Shown: piece by piece, positions 1,627 through 10,621 of the stretch | Layout of the letters: each line of letters begins with the position of its first letter | Numbering within the stretch: the stretch's first letter is position 1 | From: a bacterium | Lineage (GTDB): Bacteria > Joyebacterota > Joyebacteria > Joyebacterales > Joyebacteraceae | DNA: 43,610 bases | Assembly: GCA_025774245.1 (NCBI GenBank) | Contig: JALGWI010000019.1 | Coordinates: forward strand, 1 to 43,610 | Direction of reading: 5' to 3' | The notes under the pieces: generated by a model | What the model saw: only the letters and a program-made list of their open reading frames with translations | Told to the model about the DNA's origin: nothing | Databases searched by the model: none | Translations under genes and position numbers: made by a program

Positions 1627-4029
1627 GTGCGCGACCAGGAAGGAAACGACACGCAGTTCGTGCAGGAGCTCTGGCGACTCCGCCGGCGCGTCGCGGATCT
1701 TGAGGCGCGCGAGCGGGAGCTCCAGGACGCCCGGGCGGACCTCCTCTCCGACGCGCAGGACGCCGCGGCCCTCCTCAATGTGCCGACGGAGAGCTCCGCG
1801 ATCATCTCCCCAGAGGGCGTGATCCTCGCGATCAACGACACAGGAGCGGCCTGCCTGGGACGCGCGCCCGAGGATCTCGTCGGCACTTCGGTTCACGACG
1901 CCTTCCCCAGCGACCTCAACGCCACCCGCATGGCCAAGGTGAGCGACATCCTTCGCACGGGCGAGCCCGCAGTCTTCGAGGACGAGTCGTCCGGAGCGCT
2001 TCTCAGCAACCGATTCTACCCCATCCGCGACGAGCACGGCGAGATCGTCCGGATCGCGGTCTTCAGTCGCGACATCACCGAGCAGAGAGGGATCGAGGAG
2101 AAGCTCAGGGCCTCGGAGAGGAAGTACAGATCGCTCTTCGACAAGAGCCCCTCGCTGAAGATGGTCATCGGCGCCGACGGGGGGATCAAGGACGTCAACG
2201 CGGCGACGCTCGAGAGCCTCGGCTATGCGAGGGAAGAGCTCATCGGGAAGGACGGACTGTCGTTCGTCGTCCCGGAGGACCGCGCCCGCGCCGGGAAGCG
2301 GCTCGAGGCGAGCCTTCGAGGAGAAGCGATCCAGGCGCCGGAGACGCGAGTCTACGCCAAGGACGGTTCGATCCACACCTTCCTCTGCACGCCCGCCGTC
2401 GTCGTCGATGACGAGGAGGGGACGCCGACCGTGCTCTTCTCCTGGACGGACGTCACGGAACGGGGAGAGACCCGGCGGGCCCTCCACGAAAGCGAGGAGA
2501 GGTACCGGGCGATCTTCGAGGAATCGACCGACGTCATCTACATCACCTCTCGCGACGGGAAGCTGATCGACATCAGCCCGTCGGCCGAGTCGCTCTTCGG
2601 CCGCCCGCGGCTGGAGCTCATCGGTTCAGACGTCCGCCCGCTCTACGCCGAACCCGAGGAGCGCGTGCGGTTCCAGAGAGAAATCGAGGAGACGGGCTCC
2701 GTCAGGGAGTTCGAGGTTCGCTTCCTCGGTCCCGACGGCAACGAGCTTCACTGCCTCCTCACGTCGAGCCTCCGTCGCGACGCGGACGGCGCCGTGATCG
2801 GGTACCACGGGATCATCCGCGACATCACCGAACGCCGGCGCGCCGAGGACGAGAGAGAGAGCCTGGAGGCGCAGCTCCTCCAGGCGCAGAAGATGGAGGC
2901 CGTCGGGACGCTGGCTTCGGGCGTCGCCCACGATTTCAACAATCTCCTGACGGCGATCCAGGGCTTCGCCGACCTCGCGATGTCGTCCGCCGAGGGATCG
3001 GGACATCTTTACGGCGACCTCAGGAAGATCCGTTCCGCCGCGGACCGCGGCGCGGCCCTGACACGCCAGCTCCTCCTCTTCAGCCGAAGGCAGTCGGTCG
3101 AGCGCGTCCCGCTCGATCTCAACAGGACGGCCGAGGGCCTCCTCGGCATACTCTCCCCCCTCATCGGGGAAGACGTCGCGATGAAGACCGAGCTCGAACC
3201 CGAACTGCGGCCCGTCCTCGCAGACGAAGGAAGTATGCAGCAGATCATCATGAACCTTGCCGTGAACGCGCGAGACGCCATGCCCGAGGGAGGGCGGCTC
3301 GTCATCGGGACGAAGAACGTCGACTTCGACGATGAGCCCGCTTCCGGCGATCCTGGGGCGCGGGCCGGCGAATTCGTCTCCCTCTCCGTGACGGACACCG
3401 GCGTCGGCATGGACGCCACCACCGTCCAGCGGGTGCTCGAGCCGTTTTTCAGCACGAAGGACCCCGGCAAGGGCACGGGGCTCGGACTCTCCGTCGTCTA
3501 CGGGATCGTGCAGCAGCACGAGGGTTGGCTCGACATCAGGAGCACGCCCGGCCGCGGGTCCACATTCGAGATCTACCTTCCCGCGACGTCCGCCAGGCCG
3601 GACTATTCGCTCCGCACGTCCGAGCACGAAGAATGGAGCCTCACGAACACGACCGGCCAGGGCGAGCGAATCCTCGTCGTCGAGGACGAGGGGGCGGTAC
3701 GCGAGCTCGCGGTGAAGGTCCTGCGACAGAGCGGCTACGAGGTGCTCGAGGCGGGGACAGTGGCGGAGGCCCTCTCAGTCTTCGAGGAGCAGGAGGGACA
3801 CTTCGATCTCATCTTCAGCGACGTCATCCTGCCCGATCACACCGGTATCAGGCTGGCCGAGATGCTCCTCGAGATGAAACCCGACCTCCCGTTCCTGCTG
3901 TCGAGCGGACACGCCGACGACCGCTCGCGCTACGCGACGATCAGAGGGAAGGGGCTCGCGTTCCTCCGCAAGCCCTACTCGCTCCCCGATCTCCTCCGCA
4001 CCGTGCGCCAGATCGTAGCACCGAACTGA
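1627..4029 (+). CDS. Hybrid sensor histidine kinase, PAS-PAS-PAS-HisKA-HATPase-REC
   Basis: About 800 residues, cytoplasmic, with no transmembrane segment. A short coiled coil (residues 10-45) precedes three PAS domains at roughly 45-155, 165-280 and 288-400; each ends in a D-(I/V)-T-E-(Q/R) linker. The HisKA domain carries the phospho-accepting His435 in [10 protein letters not shown], a motif typical of NtrB-like PAS kinases. The ATPase domain has the N-box Asn547, a DTGVGM box and GTGLGLS. A C-terminal receiver domain has its acceptor Asp732 (SDVILPD) and Lys782. It would autophosphorylate and pass phosphate to its own receiver; no output domain or partner regulator lies beside it. The start is uncertain: GTG 1627 has GGAG nine bases upstream; ATG 1525 and GTG 1606 are alternatives. 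It is the only plus-strand gene and diverges from the cytochrome gene. Confidence 0.88.
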
Positions 4030-4138
4030 CCAACTCGCCGGTCCCGGCGAGATCCGATCTCCAACAACACCATCCCGGCAGCGTCGCGCCCCCGACACGC
4101 GGGAGCACGCCGACGAGCGCCCCGACGGAGCGGCCACC

Positions 4139-4175
4139 AAAAAGGATGGAGCCCGCCGGCGTCCCGGCGGGCTCC
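4139..4175 (-). terminator. Intrinsic terminator of the promoter-distal duplicated secreted-protein gene
   Basis: A perfect 12-bp stem (4148-4159 with 4164-4175, CGTC loop) is followed on the minus strand by ATCCTTTTT (4139-4147). It lies 34 bases past the stop codon at 4210. On the plus strand no T run follows, so it acts mainly on the minus-strand transcript. Confidence 0.88.
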
Positions 4176-4209
4176 ACCAAGGGGAGAGGTGCGATACCGC
4201 ACCTGGGTA

Positions 4210-5442
4210 CTACCTGTACATGGCCTTGACTCTGCCCCAGCTGCTCTCCTCGACCGGATCGATGAACTGGCCCTCGACCCACGTGTCGTCCAGGTTGATG
4301 CCCGCGCCGCCAGCAGCGCCGGGACCGCAACCGTTGTCGGTCGTGTAGAACGTGAGCCTGTAGACGAAGTCGTTACCCTCGCCCAGGAACTCAGTGACGT
4401 CCTCGCCATCGATGCCGGCCGTGCCCCAGCCGTCGCATCCGGCGAAGTCGCCCCACCACGAGCCGAGCGAGTGGAAGGTCGTGCCTCCGTCAAGGCTCGC
4501 CTCGTTCTTCCAGTAGTCGTTGTCTACCTGCGGAACCTCGGCGTGGATGAGCATGCGGAGCGTGCACGTGAACGCGCCCGAGACATCGACCACCGGCGAG
4601 TACAGCGCGTTCGCGAGGCCCGGCGGGATCAGGCTCGTGTCGGCGTCGTCGCCACACCACCAGCTGTTCGGCGGGCTGAACGACGAGCACAGATCGGTCA
4701 CGATGTGCCAGTAGTCACCCGCAGCGCCCGGAACCGCCGGCGTGCAGAGGGGACCGGTGAAGTCGACGTCGTCAAAGAAGTAGACCGCGCCGCCGTAGAA
4801 GTCGAAGATCTTGACGTCGTCGAAGTGGCACGCACCGGCGTCCGAGTCGTAGAGGTCGTCCGCGTCCGACCACGCACCGTCGGACACGAAGCGGAAGCGG
4901 CACTCGGCCGGGTTGTCGTAGACAAGCGGGAACCCGTAGAGACCGATGTCGAACCAACCGCCACTCGAGCCGTTGTAGCCCAGGTTCAGATCGGTGTAGA
5001 CGCCGCCCTGCTTCGCCTGGACGTACGTGTAGTCGTACGCGAGTTCAGAGTCATAGCGACCCTTGAAAGTCAGGATCGGATACGCAGCGGCGCCGACGTC
5101 GACCGGCGGAAGCTCCAGCCTGTCGTCCCAGCTATTCGCGTAGCCGTCGCCACCGGCGAAGTCGGGATTCTCCTCGCCGCACCAGTAGCATTCCGGACCC
5201 ACGTGACCGGCCAGGTCGCACGCGTAGTACGTGTCGACGTGGAAGTGGGGCGACGCACCAACGGTCATGTCTTCCGACCACCAGCCCGGCGCGCCGCTGT
5301 CCATGTCTTCGAAGTAGAAGAGGGTGTTGGCGTCGCTGAGGATGCCATCGAAGTCCTTCGACACGAACTCCGGCTGGACCCTCGCCGACGCGGCACCGGC
5401 GATGAGAACGAGCATGCCCAACGCGACTATCAGCTTCTTCAT
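4210..5442 (-). CDS. Secreted protein with two MAM-like modules, duplicate copy B
   Basis: This 410-residue protein begins with a clear Sec signal peptide (MKKLIVALGMLVLIAGAASA, cleavage after ASA). The mature part holds two related all-beta modules. The first contains YWCGE, DYTYVQAK and CHFDDVKIF; the second contains WWCGDDAD, VDNDYW, SLDGGTTFH and GINLDDTWVEG. The pattern of a W-W-C-G start, a D-Y-x-Y-V strand, a D-G-G-T turn and a final (F/L)DD resembles the MAM-like jelly roll of immune-inhibitor-A-type secreted proteins. No protease motif is present. The C-terminus ends PVEESSWGRVKAMYR. It is a near copy of the gene at 5658-6887 and has no recognisable promoter of its own, so it is probably reached by read-through from that gene. 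A GGGGGG-containing ribosome site precedes ATG 5442. Function is unknown; adhesion or surface-layer roles are possible. Confidence 0.82.
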   Translation of the reverse strand: MKKLIVALGMLVLIAGAASARVQPEFVSKDFDGILSDANTLFYFEDMDSGAPGWWSEDMTVGASPHFHVDTYYACDLAGHVGPECYWCGEENPDFAGGDGYANSWDDRLELPPVDVGAAAYPILTFKGRYDSELAYDYTYVQAKQGGVYTDLNLGYNGSSGGWFDIGLYGFPLVYDNPAECRFRFVSDGAWSDADDLYDSDAGACHFDDVKIFDFYGGAVYFFDDVDFTGPLCTPAVPGAAGDYWHIVTDLCSSFSPPNSWWCGDDADTSLIPPGLANALYSPVVDVSGAFTCTLRMLIHAEVPQVDNDYWKNEASLDGGTTFHSLGSWWGDFAGCDGWGTAGIDGEDVTEFLGEGNDFVYRLTFYTTDNGCGPGAAGGAGINLDDTWVEGQFIDPVEESSWGRVKAMYR

Positions 5443-5482
5443 GAGTGTCCCCCCCTGAGAAGCGATGAACGATGGGTTCGTG

Positions 5483-5492
5483 ACCTGCAGGT
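5483..5492. repeat. Palindrome ACCTGCAGGT in the leader, copy B
   Basis: A perfect 10-base palindrome lies 40 bases upstream of ATG 5442. The same palindrome lies at the same distance upstream of the other copy (6927-6936), so the duplicated unit includes the leader. It could be a small operator or simply inherited sequence. Confidence 0.5.
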
Positions 5493-5571
5493 CTGGTCTG
5501 CGCAGCTTCCGAGAGCGTTCCGGGACCTCTCTTCCGGCCGCCCGGTCGCTGCCTGTCTGCCCCTAAGAAGG

Positions 5572-5607
5572 ATGGAGCCCGACGCATAACTCCGCGTCGG
5601 GCTCCAT
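5572..5607 (-). terminator. Hairpin terminator between the two duplicated genes
   Basis: A perfect 14-bp stem (5572-5585 with 5594-5607, 8-base loop) lies about 50 bases past the stop of the 5658-6887 gene. On the minus strand it is followed by CCTTCTTAGG, a poor T-tract, which may allow partial read-through into the downstream copy. The sequence between stop codon and hairpin (AAGGGGAGAGGTG) matches that after the other copy. Confidence 0.65.
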
Positions 5608-5640
5608 GAAGGGGAGAGGTGTAGTACCGACGCTCCGGTA

Positions 5641-5667
5641 CTACCTGTACTGCTTTGCTACCTGTAC
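5641..5667. repeat. Short direct repeat at the stop codon of copy A
   Basis: CTACCTGTAC occurs at 5641-5650 and again at 5658-5667. On the minus strand each unit reads GTACAGGTAG, so the codons for Tyr-Arg and the stop are repeated 17 bases apart. The other paralogue has only one unit, so this is probably a small local duplication. Confidence 0.45.
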
Positions 5668-6887
5668 ATGGCCTTGACCTTGCCCCAGCTGCTCTCCTCG
5701 ACCGGAACGCCAGCCTCGCCCTCGAGCCAGGTGTCGTCCAGGTTGATGCCAGCACCGCCGGCCGCACCCGGGCCGCAGCCGTTGTCGGTCGTGTAGAACG
5801 TGATCTGGAACTGGAAGTCGGTGCCGTCACCAAAGAACGGAGTCAGGTCGTCGCCAGCGAAGCCGGCGGAACCCCAGCCGTCGCAGCCCGCGAAGTCGCC
5901 CCACCAGGCGTTCGTGGCGTGCCACGTAACACCACCGTCAAGACTCACGTCCTCGGCCCAATAGTCGTTGTCGACCGTCGGAACCTCGGCGTGAACCAGG
6001 TGACGGAGCGTGCACGTCGCCGCGCCGGCAATGCTGATCACCGGCGAGTACAGCGCGTTCGCCAGGTTCGGCGGAATCAGAGACGAGTCGGCGTCGTCGC
6101 CGCACCACCAGCTGTTCGGCGGGCTGAACGACGAGCACAGATCCGTAACGATGTGCCACCAGTCGCCTGCGGAGCCGGGAACTGCCGGCGTGCAGAGACC
6201 ACCCGTGATGTCGACGTCATCAAAGAAGTAGACCGTGCCGCCGTAGAAGTCGAAGATCTTGATGTCGTCGAAGTGGCACGCACCGGCGTCCGAGTCATAG
6301 AGCAGATCCTCGTCCGAATATGCACCGTCGGAGAGGAAACGGAAACGGCACTCTGCCGGGTTGTCATAGACGAGCGGGAACCCGTAGAGACCGATGTCGA
6401 ACCAGCCGCCACTCGAGCCGGCGTAGCCCAGGTTCAGGTTGGTGTAGGCACCGCCGCTCTTCGCCTGCACGTACGTGTAGTCGTACGCCACCTCAGAGTC
6501 GTAGCGACCCTTGAAGGTCAGGATCGGATACGCAGCGGCGCTGATGTCGACCGGCGGAAGCTCCAGCCTCTGGTCCCAGCCGTTCGGGTAACCGTCGCCA
6601 CCGGCCCAGGCGGCATTCTGCTCGCCGCACCAGTAGCACTCCGGACCCACGTGGCCGGCCAGGTCGCACGCGTAGTACGTCGTAACGTGGAACGTGGGCG
6701 ACGCAGTGGCCGTCAGGTCAACCGAGTACCATCCGGGCGCGCCGCTGTTCATGTCGTCATAGTAAAACAGCGTGTTCGCCCTGTTGGGTCCAGTGATCTC
6801 CGTCGTCGGAGTCGCCGTCTCGACACTGGCCGAGGCAACGCTCGCGAGGAGCACCAGAACGCCCAACGCAATAAACAGCTTCTTCAT
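5658..6887 (-). CDS. Secreted protein with two MAM-like modules, duplicate copy A
   Basis: This 409-residue protein has a Sec signal peptide (MKKLFIALGVLVLLASVASA) and the same two beta modules as the downstream copy. Module one runs from GPECYWCGEQN through CHFDDIKIFDF; module two runs from NSWWCGDDAD through INLDDTWLEG. The tail is PVEESSWGKVKAMYR. Cysteine positions match between the copies, and only scattered substitutions separate them, mostly after the signal peptide and in module two. Synonymous differences are also present, so the duplication is not brand new. It is the promoter-proximal gene of the pair, with GAGGGAGGACG before ATG 6887, a consensus promoter at 7160-7188 and a leader of about 266 nt. 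Both modules also resemble the N-terminal part of the 942-aa protein at 7443-10271. Probably a surface or extracellular protein; no enzyme motif is visible. Confidence 0.82.
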   Translation of the reverse strand: MKKLFIALGVLVLLASVASASVETATPTTEITGPNRANTLFYYDDMNSGAPGWYSVDLTATASPTFHVTTYYACDLAGHVGPECYWCGEQNAAWAGGDGYPNGWDQRLELPPVDISAAAYPILTFKGRYDSEVAYDYTYVQAKSGGAYTNLNLGYAGSSGGWFDIGLYGFPLVYDNPAECRFRFLSDGAYSDEDLLYDSDAGACHFDDIKIFDFYGGTVYFFDDVDITGGLCTPAVPGSAGDWWHIVTDLCSSFSPPNSWWCGDDADSSLIPPNLANALYSPVISIAGAATCTLRHLVHAEVPTVDNDYWAEDVSLDGGVTWHATNAWWGDFAGCDGWGSAGFAGDDLTPFFGDGTDFQFQITFYTTDNGCGPGAAGGAGINLDDTWLEGEAGVPVEESSWGKVKAMYR

Positions 6888-6926
6888 CGTACGTCCTCCC
6901 TCGAGAGGTCGAACAGACAGACCATT

Positions 6927-6936
6927 ACCTGCAGGT
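6927..6936. repeat. Palindrome ACCTGCAGGT in the leader, copy A
   Basis: The same 10-base palindrome as at 5483-5492, 39 bases upstream of ATG 6887. Its presence in both leaders shows that the duplication extends beyond the coding region. Confidence 0.5.
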
Positions 6937-7120
6937 CATGTTACAGACTGCGCACATCGCAGTCCGTCCTGCGACGCGATCGGAGCTCCCTTCTGTCCGC
7001 GCGAACAACTCATCCTCCGTTCGACGCGAGTCGAGGCCCACCGACCACGCCTTACTCACTACATAGGCACCCCTCCCCCGGGTTGCTCTACCCAACTACT
7101 AGCGTCGAGCCACAACGCTC

Positions 7121-7162
7121 ACTCAATCGGGAAGGCGAACCTTCCCTCAGTACGGATTGAGT
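7121..7162 (-). promoter_or_regulatory. Inverted repeat overlapping the -10 box, enclosing a UUCG hairpin
   Basis: ACTCAATC (7121-7128) and GATTGAGT (7155-7162) are perfect 8-base inverted arms, and the second overlaps the -10 element at 7160-7165. Between them GGGAAGG (7129-7135) and CCTTCCC (7140-7146) form a 7-bp stem which on the minus-strand RNA is capped by a TTCG tetraloop. The inner hairpin would sit at the very 5' end of the transcript; the outer arms include promoter DNA and could be a repressor site. Confidence 0.55.
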
Positions 7163-7188
7163 ATACTACTATTCTGGTTTTTTGTCAA
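7160..7188 (-). promoter_or_regulatory. Near-perfect sigma70 promoter for the duplicated secreted-protein genes
   Basis: On the minus strand TTGACA (7183-7188), a 17-base spacer and TATACT (7160-7165). This is an AT-rich island in GC-rich DNA. The predicted start near 7153 leaves about 266 nt of leader before ATG 6887. Confidence 0.8.
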
Positions 7189-7373
7189 GAGTCACCCGAC
7201 CCACAACCTACGATTGCAAGAACCCGGCCAGCACCACCGCGAGCGGCGGTGAATTCCGCTCACCCTCCAACGAACCGCCCGCGCTTCGGGCCCGGTCTCT
7301 GCAGCCCCCGCTGGCGGAGCCACGCGGGCCCGATCCCGCGACCGGGCAGCGGGACCCGCCGGGGCACAAAGAG

Positions 7374-7397
7374 AGGGGGATCGCAGGCGACCCCCCT
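7374..7397 (-). terminator. Possible terminator of the 942-aa secreted-protein gene
   Basis: AGGGGGATCG pairs with CGACCCCCCT with one mismatch around a four-base loop, followed on the minus strand by CTCTTTGTG. It lies about 45 bases past the stop at 7443. The T-tract is short, so the call is moderate. Confidence 0.45.
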
Positions 7398-7442
7398 CCC
7401 CTACGGCTCTTTCAAGCCCAGTCCCGGATTCCTCCGGTCCTG

Positions 7443-10271
7443 TTACTTCATCATGATCATCTTCTTCGACGACGCGAAGCCCGGCGCCTCGATGCGGTAG
7501 AAGTAGACACCGCTCGAGCAACGCTCGCCGCCGTCGTTCCGGCCGTCCCACACGACGTGACCGTTGGTGCCTGCCGCCATCTCCTCGTCGAGGAGGGTGC
7601 GAACGGCACGCCCGGCAACGTTGAAGACCCGGATGCTCACACGCCCCGCGTCTCTCACGCTGTAGGCGATCTTGGTCACCGGGTTGAACGGGTTCGGATA
7701 GGCCTGGCTCAGGGTGTTCCTGACCCCGCCGTCAACGACGCCCGTCGGGTCGCCGGTCGGCACAACCGCGAAGTAATCCATGATGTTCCGCATGAGATCG
7801 ACGCGGTCCCACACACCGGTCGTGTAGTAACCCTGGGTCCGCGACGTCTGCATGCTGTCCATCATGAACTCCATGCCGAAGCCGAGGTTCACCGTCTGGT
7901 AGCCCGAGGTCGCGTTCGTGTACGCCACGCCCGCGGACCGCCTCGCGGCATCCACCCTGACGTAGTCCGCGACCGTCTCGTTCCCGGGGATACCGGGGAA
8001 CGGCTCGACCACGTCGAAGTAGTTCAGGACCGGGCAGCCGCCACGGACGATGCAGGCGCCATCGTCGTACGTCATGAAGTCCCAGCCGCCCGCCTTGTCC
8101 TCGAGGCCCGGGACGCTGTCGACCGTCACCGCGCCGACCGCATTCTCGATCCAGTCCGACGCCATCCACGTCTCGTAGAACTGGAGCGTCTCCTTGTCGG
8201 CGATACCCATCAGCTCCTTGCCGATGTCGTTACCGGTCAGGAGGAGGTTGCGCTCGACGCCCGGACCCGACTGGTTCAGCCACTCGATCAGGTTCGCCTG
8301 GTCCGGCGGCTTGATCGTGTAGGAGTCGAACTCGTTCGTGAACCAGATCTGGGTGTGGTAGTACCGCATGCCCGCGCTGTCGGGGCCGGCCGACTGCTCC
8401 GTGCTCCCCGACGGAACCTCGACGTCGTACTTGTCGTACTCGTAGCCGAGGATCTCGAGGGGCTCCCGGTAGTAGTACTCCGAACTGTGCCGGTAGGTCC
8501 GGTCCTCGCCCGGCATCCGACGGCCGTGCTTGTCGACCAGGAGCATCGCGGGATTCACTTCGCTCCCCAGGATCGGGAGGATCGACATCTCGTACGACAG
8601 GTCGGGGAAACGGCTCGGGAGGACCGCGACGTTCCCAACGCCGTCGACGGCCTCGAACCCGTATCGGATGACGCTCCCAGGCGTCATCTCCACCGAGGGC
8701 GGCGGCCCGACGTACCAGTCGCCCTGGGGGTTCTCCTTGTGGCAGTCGTACGAACTCCACGTGAGGCCGCCATCGTTCGACGCCATCATGGTAACTGAGA
8801 GGATGTCGTCGTCATCCTTGACCTTGATCCTGGCGCTGTCCAGCAACGCATCGTTGATGTCGTCGATGAACCAGTCGTGGTAGAAGTTCCAGTCGTCAAT
8901 CTCCCACGCGGTGCCCGCATCGCCGGACGGGATGCCGACTCTCTGCCGGTTGAGGAAGATGCCGGCCGCGTGCGGGCCTGGCGACGGAGTACCGTCGGCC
9001 GGCGGAGAGTGCTGCTCCGCCCAGAGGATCGCCAGCCACTCGTTCCCGGCGAACGCATCCCAGTCGTCGCTCCACACGCTCCAGAACGGGCCTCCGTACC
9101 ACCAGCCCGTCTCTTCGTCGATGAAGCCCGACGGATCGACGACGCAGTCGATCAGGTCGTTCGACGCCAGGTAGAGGTTGAAGATGTCGTCCGAGGGACG
9201 CGGGAGCTCGACCCACATGTCCCACTGGCCGACCAGCTTCGGCGCACCGCTGATGTTGATCGGCGGGCTCATGAGCCACGCGTACTCATTGTCGACCATC
9301 GTGCTCGTCACCGGGTCTACGGCCGCGTACATCCAGCTGCCGATGGGCCGGTCGTCGCACGTGAAGTCCTGGCCCGTCAGGAACTCCATCCCGAACTGCC
9401 CGCGCTCGAAGGTGACGTTGGTCTGGCCGGACGCGTCCAGAGGCTCGTGAACCCAGCCCAGGTTGCCCGACTCGCTGTCATCGAGCCAGAACTGCCCGCT
9501 CGGGCCGATCAGCTCGATGTTGTCGATCTGCCAGGCGCCGTCCTGGACCGAGTGGTTCGGGGCGCCGTTGTCATACTCGTCCTCAGACGAGTACGCACCG
9601 TCCGACTCCATGCGGAACCGGATGCCGATGGTCGTGCCGGCGTAGGCAGTGAGGTCGACCTCGACGTGCCCCGTCTCGGCATCGTCCCAGTCCTTGGACA
9701 GACCGGGCTTCCCGGCGAACCCGGGGTTGTTGGCCGTCTCGAGCGTGATCCACGTGCTGCCGCCGTCGATCGAGACCTCCGTGTACCCGTAGTCGTAGTC
9801 GTGCTCCATCGCGAACCGCTGGTCGTACTCGAGGAAGAGATCGTCCCCGATGTTCGTGTTGGCCTCGATCTCCGGGAACTCACGCTCGAGAATCTGCAGC
9901 CAGTTGTTGCCGTAGCCACGGGGCTGCGGCCAGCAGATGTTGTTGGTGCCACACCACCAGGTGCTCTCTCCCAGATACGCTTCTGAGAGCCGAATCGTAT
10001 CGTGGTGCCAGTAGTTGTCCTGGCCCAGCGTTCCGCTCCGGTCGAATGACTGCCATCCAGCATTGTCGCCGCTCAGATCTTCGAAGTCGGCATCGAAGAT
10101 CCAGAGGGTCTCCAGCCTGGCCCCTCTGAGATCGGCGGGTGTGGCAGCACCACTGTACGGCGAGGGCACCCTGCTCACGAGGTCCGTATCGAGGCCAGTC
10201 GCAAAGGCCCCGCTCACGCACGTCGCCAACAGCACGCCGATCGCCAGAACAGCAAAGGGCTTGTACTTCAT
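7443..10271 (-). CDS. Large secreted multidomain protein with C-terminal FlgD-like domain
   Basis: This 942-residue protein starts with a Sec signal peptide (MKYKPFAVLAIGVLLATCVSGAFA). Residues about 85-250 form a MAM-like module (WWCGTNN, DYGYTEVSIDGGSTW, SDGAYSSEDEYD, WQIDNIEL), similar to the modules of the two duplicated proteins at 4210-6887. A second beta module follows (about 260-500), then a region with LLVDKHGRR and NLLLTGNDIG that resembles the glutamine-amidotransferase-like fold found in secreted FCB proteins. The last 80 residues (NPFNPVTKIAYSV, VSIRVFNVAGRAVRTL, VVWDGRNDGGERCSSGVYFYR) are an FlgD-Ig / type IX sorting-like C-terminal domain. It is probably exported through the outer membrane or anchored at the surface. 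ATG 10271 is chosen over an upstream in-frame ATG at 10289 because the signal peptide starts there and GGGGGG precedes it. A consensus promoter lies at 10563-10591. Confidence 0.83.
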   Translation of the reverse strand: MKYKPFAVLAIGVLLATCVSGAFATGLDTDLVSRVPSPYSGAATPADLRGARLETLWIFDADFEDLSGDNAGWQSFDRSGTLGQDNYWHHDTIRLSEAYLGESTWWCGTNNICWPQPRGYGNNWLQILEREFPEIEANTNIGDDLFLEYDQRFAMEHDYDYGYTEVSIDGGSTWITLETANNPGFAGKPGLSKDWDDAETGHVEVDLTAYAGTTIGIRFRMESDGAYSSEDEYDNGAPNHSVQDGAWQIDNIELIGPSGQFWLDDSESGNLGWVHEPLDASGQTNVTFERGQFGMEFLTGQDFTCDDRPIGSWMYAAVDPVTSTMVDNEYAWLMSPPINISGAPKLVGQWDMWVELPRPSDDIFNLYLASNDLIDCVVDPSGFIDEETGWWYGGPFWSVWSDDWDAFAGNEWLAILWAEQHSPPADGTPSPGPHAAGIFLNRQRVGIPSGDAGTAWEIDDWNFYHDWFIDDINDALLDSARIKVKDDDDILSVTMMASNDGGLTWSSYDCHKENPQGDWYVGPPPSVEMTPGSVIRYGFEAVDGVGNVAVLPSRFPDLSYEMSILPILGSEVNPAMLLVDKHGRRMPGEDRTYRHSSEYYYREPLEILGYEYDKYDVEVPSGSTEQSAGPDSAGMRYYHTQIWFTNEFDSYTIKPPDQANLIEWLNQSGPGVERNLLLTGNDIGKELMGIADKETLQFYETWMASDWIENAVGAVTVDSVPGLEDKAGGWDFMTYDDGACIVRGGCPVLNYFDVVEPFPGIPGNETVADYVRVDAARRSAGVAYTNATSGYQTVNLGFGMEFMMDSMQTSRTQGYYTTGVWDRVDLMRNIMDYFAVVPTGDPTGVVDGGVRNTLSQAYPNPFNPVTKIAYSVRDAGRVSIRVFNVAGRAVRTLLDEEMAAGTNGHVVWDGRNDGGERCSSGVYFYRIEAPGFASSKKMIMMK

Positions 10272-10621
10272 TCGCTCAGTCCCCCCCAATTAAGTGATCC
10301 AGCTCATCGCTCACATCTATGCAACTCAGTCCCCGACCGAGTGCTCGCGGGTCAGGGCCACCTCCGAACGCAGTGGTCGAGGTGATCTTCAAAGTAGCGA
10401 GGTGCTACTCATTCAGGGCGCAATCCCAGGTTTTCAGTCAACGCTCGATGTCTACTCAGTGCAGACGGATAAACCACCCCGTCTACAAAACAGCCCGGTC
10501 TTGCACTGGCGCAGGTGGGTCGACAGCGCGGGGCGCTCTCGCTATTTCCCGACTCGCTTGACATTATAACAGTCGGCGGGGCCGAAGTCAACGGCAATGC
10601 CCACATGGAGAATCGAGGGGA
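10272..10621 (-). other. Long leader and promoter region of the 942-aa secreted protein
   Basis: This 350-base non-coding stretch contains the promoter at 10563-10591 and a predicted leader of about 285 nt. On the minus-strand RNA a small hairpin AGTAGC/GCTACT (10393-10409) followed by TTTG is visible, and an AGACGG/CCGTCT hairpin lies upstream of it. No small ORF with a ribosome site stands out, and no known riboswitch class was recognised. Confidence 0.5.
10563..10591 (-). promoter_or_regulatory. Consensus sigma70 promoter of the 942-aa secreted protein gene
   Basis: On the minus strand TTGACT (10586-10591), a 17-base spacer and TATAAT (10563-10568). The predicted transcription start is near 10556. 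Confidence 0.8.

Follow-up and report, generated by a model that had tools for sequence, protein, structure and literature searches.

The window analysed here, a stretch of 43,610 nucleotides (contig JALGWI010000019.1 of assembly GCA_025774245.1, positions 1 to 43,610), carries a tandem pair of genes for secreted two-module proteins, both of which end in the tail VEESSWG(R/K)VKAMYR. The initial annotation had listed this tail among the features shared by the duplicated unit. Both copies have it, yet it does not mark the duplication in particular, as the host genome holds 62 such endings, and on the sequence evidence what had been missed as such is a genome-wide C-terminal tag: the motif is a mostly C-terminal, body-independent ending on proteins that mostly have signal-peptide-like starts. 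We propose, with a probability of roughly 0.55, that the tail (consensus (P)VExx[ST]WGx[IV]K[AG][LM][YF]R-stop) is a short sorting or attachment tag associated with the type IX secretion system (T9SS), and that the pair would be two of its clients.

The tail in the host genome and its relatives

The host genome (128 contigs totalling 3.23 Mb; completeness 97.4%, contamination 3.2%), which we infer to belong to the phylum Candidatus Effluviviacota, was searched at the DNA level for the pattern WGx[IVM]Kxx[YF][RS]-stop, with the reversed pattern as control. The pattern occurred 62 times and the control not at all; the 62 endings have the form [ST]WGx[IV]K[AG][LM][YF]R-stop. Without the stop the pattern matched at 66 places, of which 62 were at a stop, two had 1-2 extra residues, one had 8, and one was internal, in a family relative. 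Looser tails were seen on the homologous proteins L236, L243 and L099 (SSWGEIKAEFK, STWGEIKASNE and SWTQIKALYR), and another loose end read WGSIKALLK; because such ends occur, counts made with the exact pattern are lower bounds.

The bodies that precede the tail are diverse. With the last 20 residues removed, the 62 proteins fell into 29 clusters (single linkage, blastp E 1e-5), the largest with 19 members. Right-handed beta-helices (20 proteins) and InhA-like MAM domains (5) were found together with CBM20, plastocyanin, PKD, lamin-tail and pectate lyase domains; polymorphic-outer-membrane-protein repeats were present in nine, and NCBIfam models placed choice-of-anchor V on two and choice-of-anchor J on one. 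Pfam and NCBIfam each listed 17 families across these proteins, none of them a sorting-tail model, with match positions known for the first member only, and the T9SS type A profile TIGR04183 matched 0 of the 62 at E <= 0.01.

A signal-peptide-like start was detected in 43 of the 52 tail open reading frames (ORFs) with a closed 5' end and in 10 of 37 other ORFs (p 1.3e-7), by a simple rule of our own rather than SignalP and with secreted proteins included among the comparison ORFs, which came from the window plus three other loci (one belonging to a different genome). By the same rule, most of the tail proteins have the N-terminal signal peptide of T9SS cargo. At the other end, only two of the 62 had a hydrophobic 15-residue stretch (mean Kyte-Doolittle value >= 1.6) in their last 40 residues, so a C-terminal transmembrane helix with a basic end is not the rule.

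Residues that the DNA pattern left unfixed were also preferred, namely [ST] before the W, V-E and P further upstream, A/G and L/M. In set A2, made up of proteins selected because they carry the tail, V, WG and K were the sole invariant residues after the last module. Conservation of W, G, K, [YF] and R is partly by construction in sets gathered by pattern or chosen for the tail, and independent support comes from the family set gathered by homology and from the profile matches L225-L228. Just ahead of the tail, several host-genome tail proteins (L012, L016, L018, L025), presumably beta-helix ones, have a GAxGxGC stretch.

A T9SS is present in the host genome, as indicated by a SprA gene (G000:C51, 524 bits against a cut-off of 200). 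The genome also has 22 matches to the C25 peptidase family, that of gingipains and PorU, and 143 matches to TIGR04183 at E <= 0.001 (150 of 152 candidates scored). The two endings meet on one body: the two-module body also starts four complete long proteins of 1458-1835 amino acids (L213, L214, L215, L217) that lack the WG motif, three of which end in TIGR04183 matches over the cut-off (33.8, 33.1 and 27.5 bits against 23) and the fourth of which, L217, scores 20.3 bits, below it.

Across 61 genomes, all 20 family genomes (host included) had 13-67 tails each and 4 of the 41 others had tail matches, the reversed pattern giving none; SprA was matched (E <= 0.001) in 23 of these 24 tail genomes. 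In a second set, made up of 289 relatives of one outside tail carrier, the tail was found in 100 genomes (three matches for the reversed pattern) and SprA, at the same threshold, in 163, compared with 0 of 14 control genomes. SprA was matched in 100 of the 100 tail genomes, and the tail occurred in 0 of the 126 genomes without a SprA match. The association also held outside the two tail-rich groups (207 genomes), where SprA was found in 22 of 22 tail genomes versus 59 of 185 tail-less ones (p 1.5e-10). In a sample of one locus per genome from 30 genomes, two of which belong to the window's family, a signal-peptide-like start was present in 24 of the 30 tail ORFs.

A third set comprised 296 genomes of the phylum of G300, which is probably Bacteroidota, as suggested by a full-length SprA of 2705 bits. 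The tail was found in 69 of the genomes, exactly once in 68 of them, and since the reversed pattern also gave three matches, a few lone matches elsewhere may be due to chance. In 20 of 21 genomes inspected, the carrier was one small secreted protein ending in RTWG[SM]IK[AE][ML]FR or a close variant, the exception (L253) resembling a chance match, and a profile of six such proteins found more of them independently of the DNA pattern. The family (L254-L274 and L219-L228, in other genomes) is present mostly as one gene per genome. Its Pfam matches, for example to F5/8 type C, were all sub-threshold, and from the look of the sequence we presume it to be Fn3-like. Neighbouring genes included an MXAN_6640-type metalloprotease in four scanned loci, one with a type A tail below threshold (20.5 bits against 23); a further locus had SpoIID/LytB, and no T9SS core gene was seen among the scanned neighbours.

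The tandem pair and its flanking elements

Sequence, ORF and alignment checks agreed with the initial annotation on the coordinates, minus-strand orientation, module order and cysteines of the two copies (Table 1). The proteins are identical at 316 of 409 positions (dN 0.157, dS 0.455), and the direct repeat has a spacing of 1448 bases. Nucleotide identity between the copies ranged from 64 to 92% in 100-column blocks of the coding part; upstream of the starts the alignment dropped to 61% with many gaps, and it ran at 69% across the hairpins and then stopped. This unevenness indicates that the similarity of leader and hairpin is real but short. A lack of nucleotide similarity outside the coding parts, which the initial annotation had named as evidence against its view, was therefore not found, and its duplicated transcription segment of about 1.45 kb stands for the gene, a short leader and a terminator-like hairpin, with the qualification that the flanking similarity is short.

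Table 1 Features of the tandem pair and its surroundings (window coordinates)
Feature	Coordinates	Strand	Remarks
First-transcribed (upstream) copy	5658..6887	-	409 aa; signal peptide, two MAM/jelly-roll modules, C-terminal WGxVKxMYR tail
Downstream copy	4210..5442	-	410 aa; 77% identical to first copy
Tail codons VEESSWGKVKAMYR + stop, first copy	5658..5702	-	One among 62 such endings in the genome
Tail codons VEESSWGRVKAMYR + stop, second copy	4210..4254	-	Found by tail pattern search
Sigma-70-like promoter candidate, TTGACA-17-TATACT	7160..7188	-	Sole site in consensus scan of 3600-7600
Hairpin 3' of first copy, weak T-tract (CCTTCTTA); possible leaky terminator	5572..5607	-	-36.7 kcal/mol, z -6.7
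Hairpin 3' of second copy, then TTTTT; intrinsic-terminator-like	4145..4178	-	-36.9 kcal/mol, z -3.8
Palindrome ACCTGCAGGT	6927..6936	.	About 40 bases upstream of first start
Palindrome ACCTGCAGGT	5483..5492	.	About 40 bases upstream of second start
948-aa secreted neighbour	7443..10289	-	MAM-like module and T9SS type A tail (TIGR04183 28.6 bits, cut-off 23), the genome's other kind of C-terminal signal

The tree built from 57 complete family members placed the two copies as sisters and mutual closest relatives (support 100/98), and they share flanking DNA that includes part of the hairpin region, as tandem duplicates do. Nearest to the pair in the tree was a gene from another species of the genus; the relative in G002, which is 61% identical to the first copy, lies outside that tree. 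No second copy was listed alongside the nearest relatives in two other genomes of the genus (G001:C8 and G002:C208); each of these genes sits less than 1 kb from a contig start, so a neighbour may have been lost. Side-by-side family members were found in at least 13 of the 20 family genomes (G000, G003-G009, G013, G015-G018), some of them being fragmented genes. As a duplication, the pair is ordinary; adjacent members are widespread in the family. Long open frames lie opposite both copies on the plus strand (4189-5589, 466 codons; 5655-7160, 501 codons) and are probably a by-product of high G+C.

The palindrome that the initial annotation placed about 40 bases before each start was found in the window exactly twice, and the hairpins it described after each stop were both recovered. 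The palindrome was rejected as a family-wide operator, because only 3 of the 62 members checked have it and two of these are the window's own; the third lies 47 bases upstream of a family member in another genus (L169, starting at 549 on the reverse strand) and is a possible operator there. An Rfam search of 3900-7300 gave no match. A promoter had been claimed for the upstream copy only, and the consensus scan, which is the one line of evidence on this point, did return a single site; it matches the consensus at 11 of 12 positions, and shuffled sequences yield 0.4 such sites (sd 0.7). The corresponding scan for terminator-like sites found three where 2.2 are expected by chance; the fold energies are the stronger evidence for terminators. 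Perfect stems of at least 9 pairs follow the stop in 23 of the 62 tail genes, compared with 0.6 in shuffles.

These elements had suggested that the locus is about dosage, a duplicated transcription segment in which the proportion of the two products would be set by the weak terminator at 5572. In keeping with this view, the locus has a single promoter-like site and two hairpins, with the weaker T-tract following the first copy, and from the sequence it is plausible that a leaky terminator sets the copy ratio, given the weak T-tract at 5572 compared with TTTTT at 4145. However, the promoter evidence is a consensus scan, long perfect stems after the stop are shared by more than a third of the tail genes, tandem copies are common elsewhere, and the genome-wide tail is left unexplained. 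We regard dosage as a doubtful account of the locus, although it can be compatible with the tail being a sorting tag.

Placement of the motif and its possible role

In the AlphaFold2 model of the window protein (mean predicted local distance difference test score, pLDDT, 75.5), a signal peptide precedes two beta modules, which are followed by a linker and then a C-terminal helix; this helix, at 398-408, corresponds to the tail. Foldseek ranked immune inhibitor A2 (InhA2) first for this model (E 7e-7, template-modelling score 0.3). The model of L076, a relative with an internal motif, was better (mean pLDDT 82.9) and matched InhA2 (Z 16.1), meprin MAM domains and the gingipain cleaved-adhesin domain, which comes from a T9SS cargo protein (Kgp K3, 3m1h; Z 13.4, root-mean-square deviation 2.8, 150 residues aligned). 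In sequence, the InhA-like MAM family PF20773 scored 24.4 and 14.8 bits for the two copies, below its cut-off of 26.9, and a search of solved structures with the first copy gave no match. The helical moment of the tail was 0.43 compared with 0.34 for shuffles (sd 0.018); its beta moment, 0.48, is above the helical one, so a beta reading of the tail is possible.

Among 57 complete family ORFs gathered by homology (ten further ORFs, eight partial and two with unknown residues, were set aside), the motif was only terminal in 37, only internal in a loop of module 1 in 19, and never both; the remaining one, L162, had neither by the search expression and bears the one-letter variant WAVLKALYR at the internal place. 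The internal motif always follows the same LPP-type strand of module 1, and in the internal-form model it is again a helix (WGTIKAR at 114-120). TIGR04183 matched 0 of three internal-form relatives. A different shared C-terminus (SPYRRF, SPYSKF, SPYAKF and similar) was seen on the internal-form relatives L151 and L153-L156 in other genomes.

A single inherited origin of the internal motif was rejected by an approximately unbiased test on module 2 (p 2.9e-5), in which 50 of the 57 rows were used (seven, in which the landmark GCGPG was not found, were dropped) and 18 were held together (17 internal forms and L162). The starred branches of the tree force at least three changes for the internal forms; these may be one gain and two losses, and shuffling of modules between paralogues is possible. 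Long branches are present. As the internal forms do not make one clade, the motif changed place repeatedly or modules were shuffled, with one copy per protein remaining.

We infer from the sequence that the tail proteins depend on the T9SS. In the mechanism we propose, Sec would export them past the inner membrane and the tag would next be recognised, within the periplasm or at the outer membrane; the T9SS shuttle and attachment machinery, or a surface receptor that works with it, would be the likeliest reader. The outcome would be small proteins placed on the cell surface alongside larger ones that use the longer type A domain. That the motif is also kept in an internal loop of some relatives makes a displayed docking peptide more likely than an obligatory free end.

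Several observations weigh against this sorting-tag reading. The tail is far shorter than the shortest C-terminal domains (CTDs) of T9SS cargo described (43-55 aa, PMC11969387), none of the CTD motifs B, D and E was seen in it, and its predicted helix has a pLDDT of only about 60. It would be uncommon for a T9SS signal to stand inside a protein, and no partner protein for the tail was identified. As for SprA, G012 (57% complete) has 13 tails and no SprA match, only 121 of the 163 matches in the second set pass the curated cut-off, some matches are weak (for example G200 1.4e-4, G017 8e-6 and G138 9.6e-8), and the exact tail is absent from 63 SprA-positive genomes of that set. The co-occurrence is moreover confounded by shared descent, because the few phyla from which a T9SS is reported are related (PMC11285876).

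Alternatively, the tail would not serve secretion but would play a dockerin-like part, docking onto a receptor or scaffold dedicated to it at the surface; the proteins would cross the outer membrane by other means, and the T9SS would co-occur only through the scaffold or through lineage. The presence of the motif once per protein, whether terminal or in an internal loop, the tail extensions of 1-8 residues and a helical moment above that of shuffles, albeit with the higher beta moment, are in line with docking. No candidate receptor was identified, however, and the type A tails on the same body in the long proteins suggest delivery over pure docking, so that we consider this alternative unlikely. 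A periplasmic tag that acts, for example, in folding, retention or protection from proteolysis and is unrelated to surface delivery appears quite improbable: signal peptides take proteins only beyond the inner membrane and crossing of the outer membrane is our supposition, but the bodies belong to types usual at the surface or outside the cell, among them the polymorphic-outer-membrane-protein repeats and choice-of-anchor domains. That the shared tails are functionless remnants of common descent in one gene family can be practically dismissed: paralogy of some bodies (at most 19 of 62 in a cluster) speaks for it, but the bodies fall into 29 clusters, positions unfixed by the DNA pattern are also strongly preferred, and the motif was retained in 57 of 57 complete homology-gathered members, one with a variant letter.

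Returning to the sorting tag, we tentatively extend it to a wider proposal in which WGxIKxxYR may be an ancient code by which T9SS bacteria address proteins to their surface, distinct from the CTDs already known. It would be carried by a single small secreted protein in Bacteroidota-like genomes, would have been made a general tag for dozens of proteins in Candidatus Effluviviacota and a few other lineages, and would work terminally or from an internal loop. If the sorting-tag reading is right, T9SS-bearing bacteria gain a short second address tag, surface proteins become predictable in many uncultured phyla (62 candidates in the host genome alone), and the small conserved Bacteroidota-like protein is a direct test case.

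Comparison with known C-terminal tags

The modules of the window protein fold like the MAM-like domains of immune inhibitor A and the gingipain cleaved adhesin but, unlike those proteins, it has no protease part. In MYXO-CTERM, PEP-CTERM and rhombosortase tags a signature comes with a transmembrane helix and a basic end, and such tags are found on dozens of unrelated exported proteins per genome. Some of their body families (choice_anch_V, MXAN_6652) are also present on tail proteins, which differ in that the hydrophobic stretch is nearly always missing. Choice-of-anchor domains (NF041895, NF038128) are named for their changing C-terminal anchors; they occur on tail proteins and name the body, not the tail.

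The T9SS type A domain (TIGR04183/PF18962) is likewise C-terminal on Sec-exported, structurally diverse surface proteins, with many per genome, and on the long relatives it also ends in hydrophobic residues and a basic residue, like the tail. It is, however, an Ig-like profile of 72 positions that none of the 62 tail proteins matches. In Porphyromonas gingivalis, the CTD cannot do without its last residues but tolerates a C-terminal extension (PMC11285876), which resembles the 1-8 extra residues after some tails. Short CTDs of 43-55 aa stand beside long CTDs in Prevotella intermedia, with three predicted beta-strands and motifs B, D (GxY) and E (PMC11969387); this is a reduced signal beside a long one in the same genome, as here. 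The tail, at about 14 aa and with the form WGxIKxxYR, is much shorter and these motifs were not seen in it, and for these reasons we do not file it as a CTD.

In searches of open PMC papers no description of the tail was seen in the text consulted, subscription papers and preprints being outside this scope, and the words 'C-terminal' and 'sorting' have 0 occurrences in the accessible text of the Effluviviacota description (PMC11323493). Because the same ending is shared by dozens of secreted proteins that are otherwise unrelated, and is met again in related phyla, the tail looks like an undescribed cell-surface address tag. While C-terminal sorting tags are a kind already known, what appears to be new is the form of this one, WGxIKxxYR.

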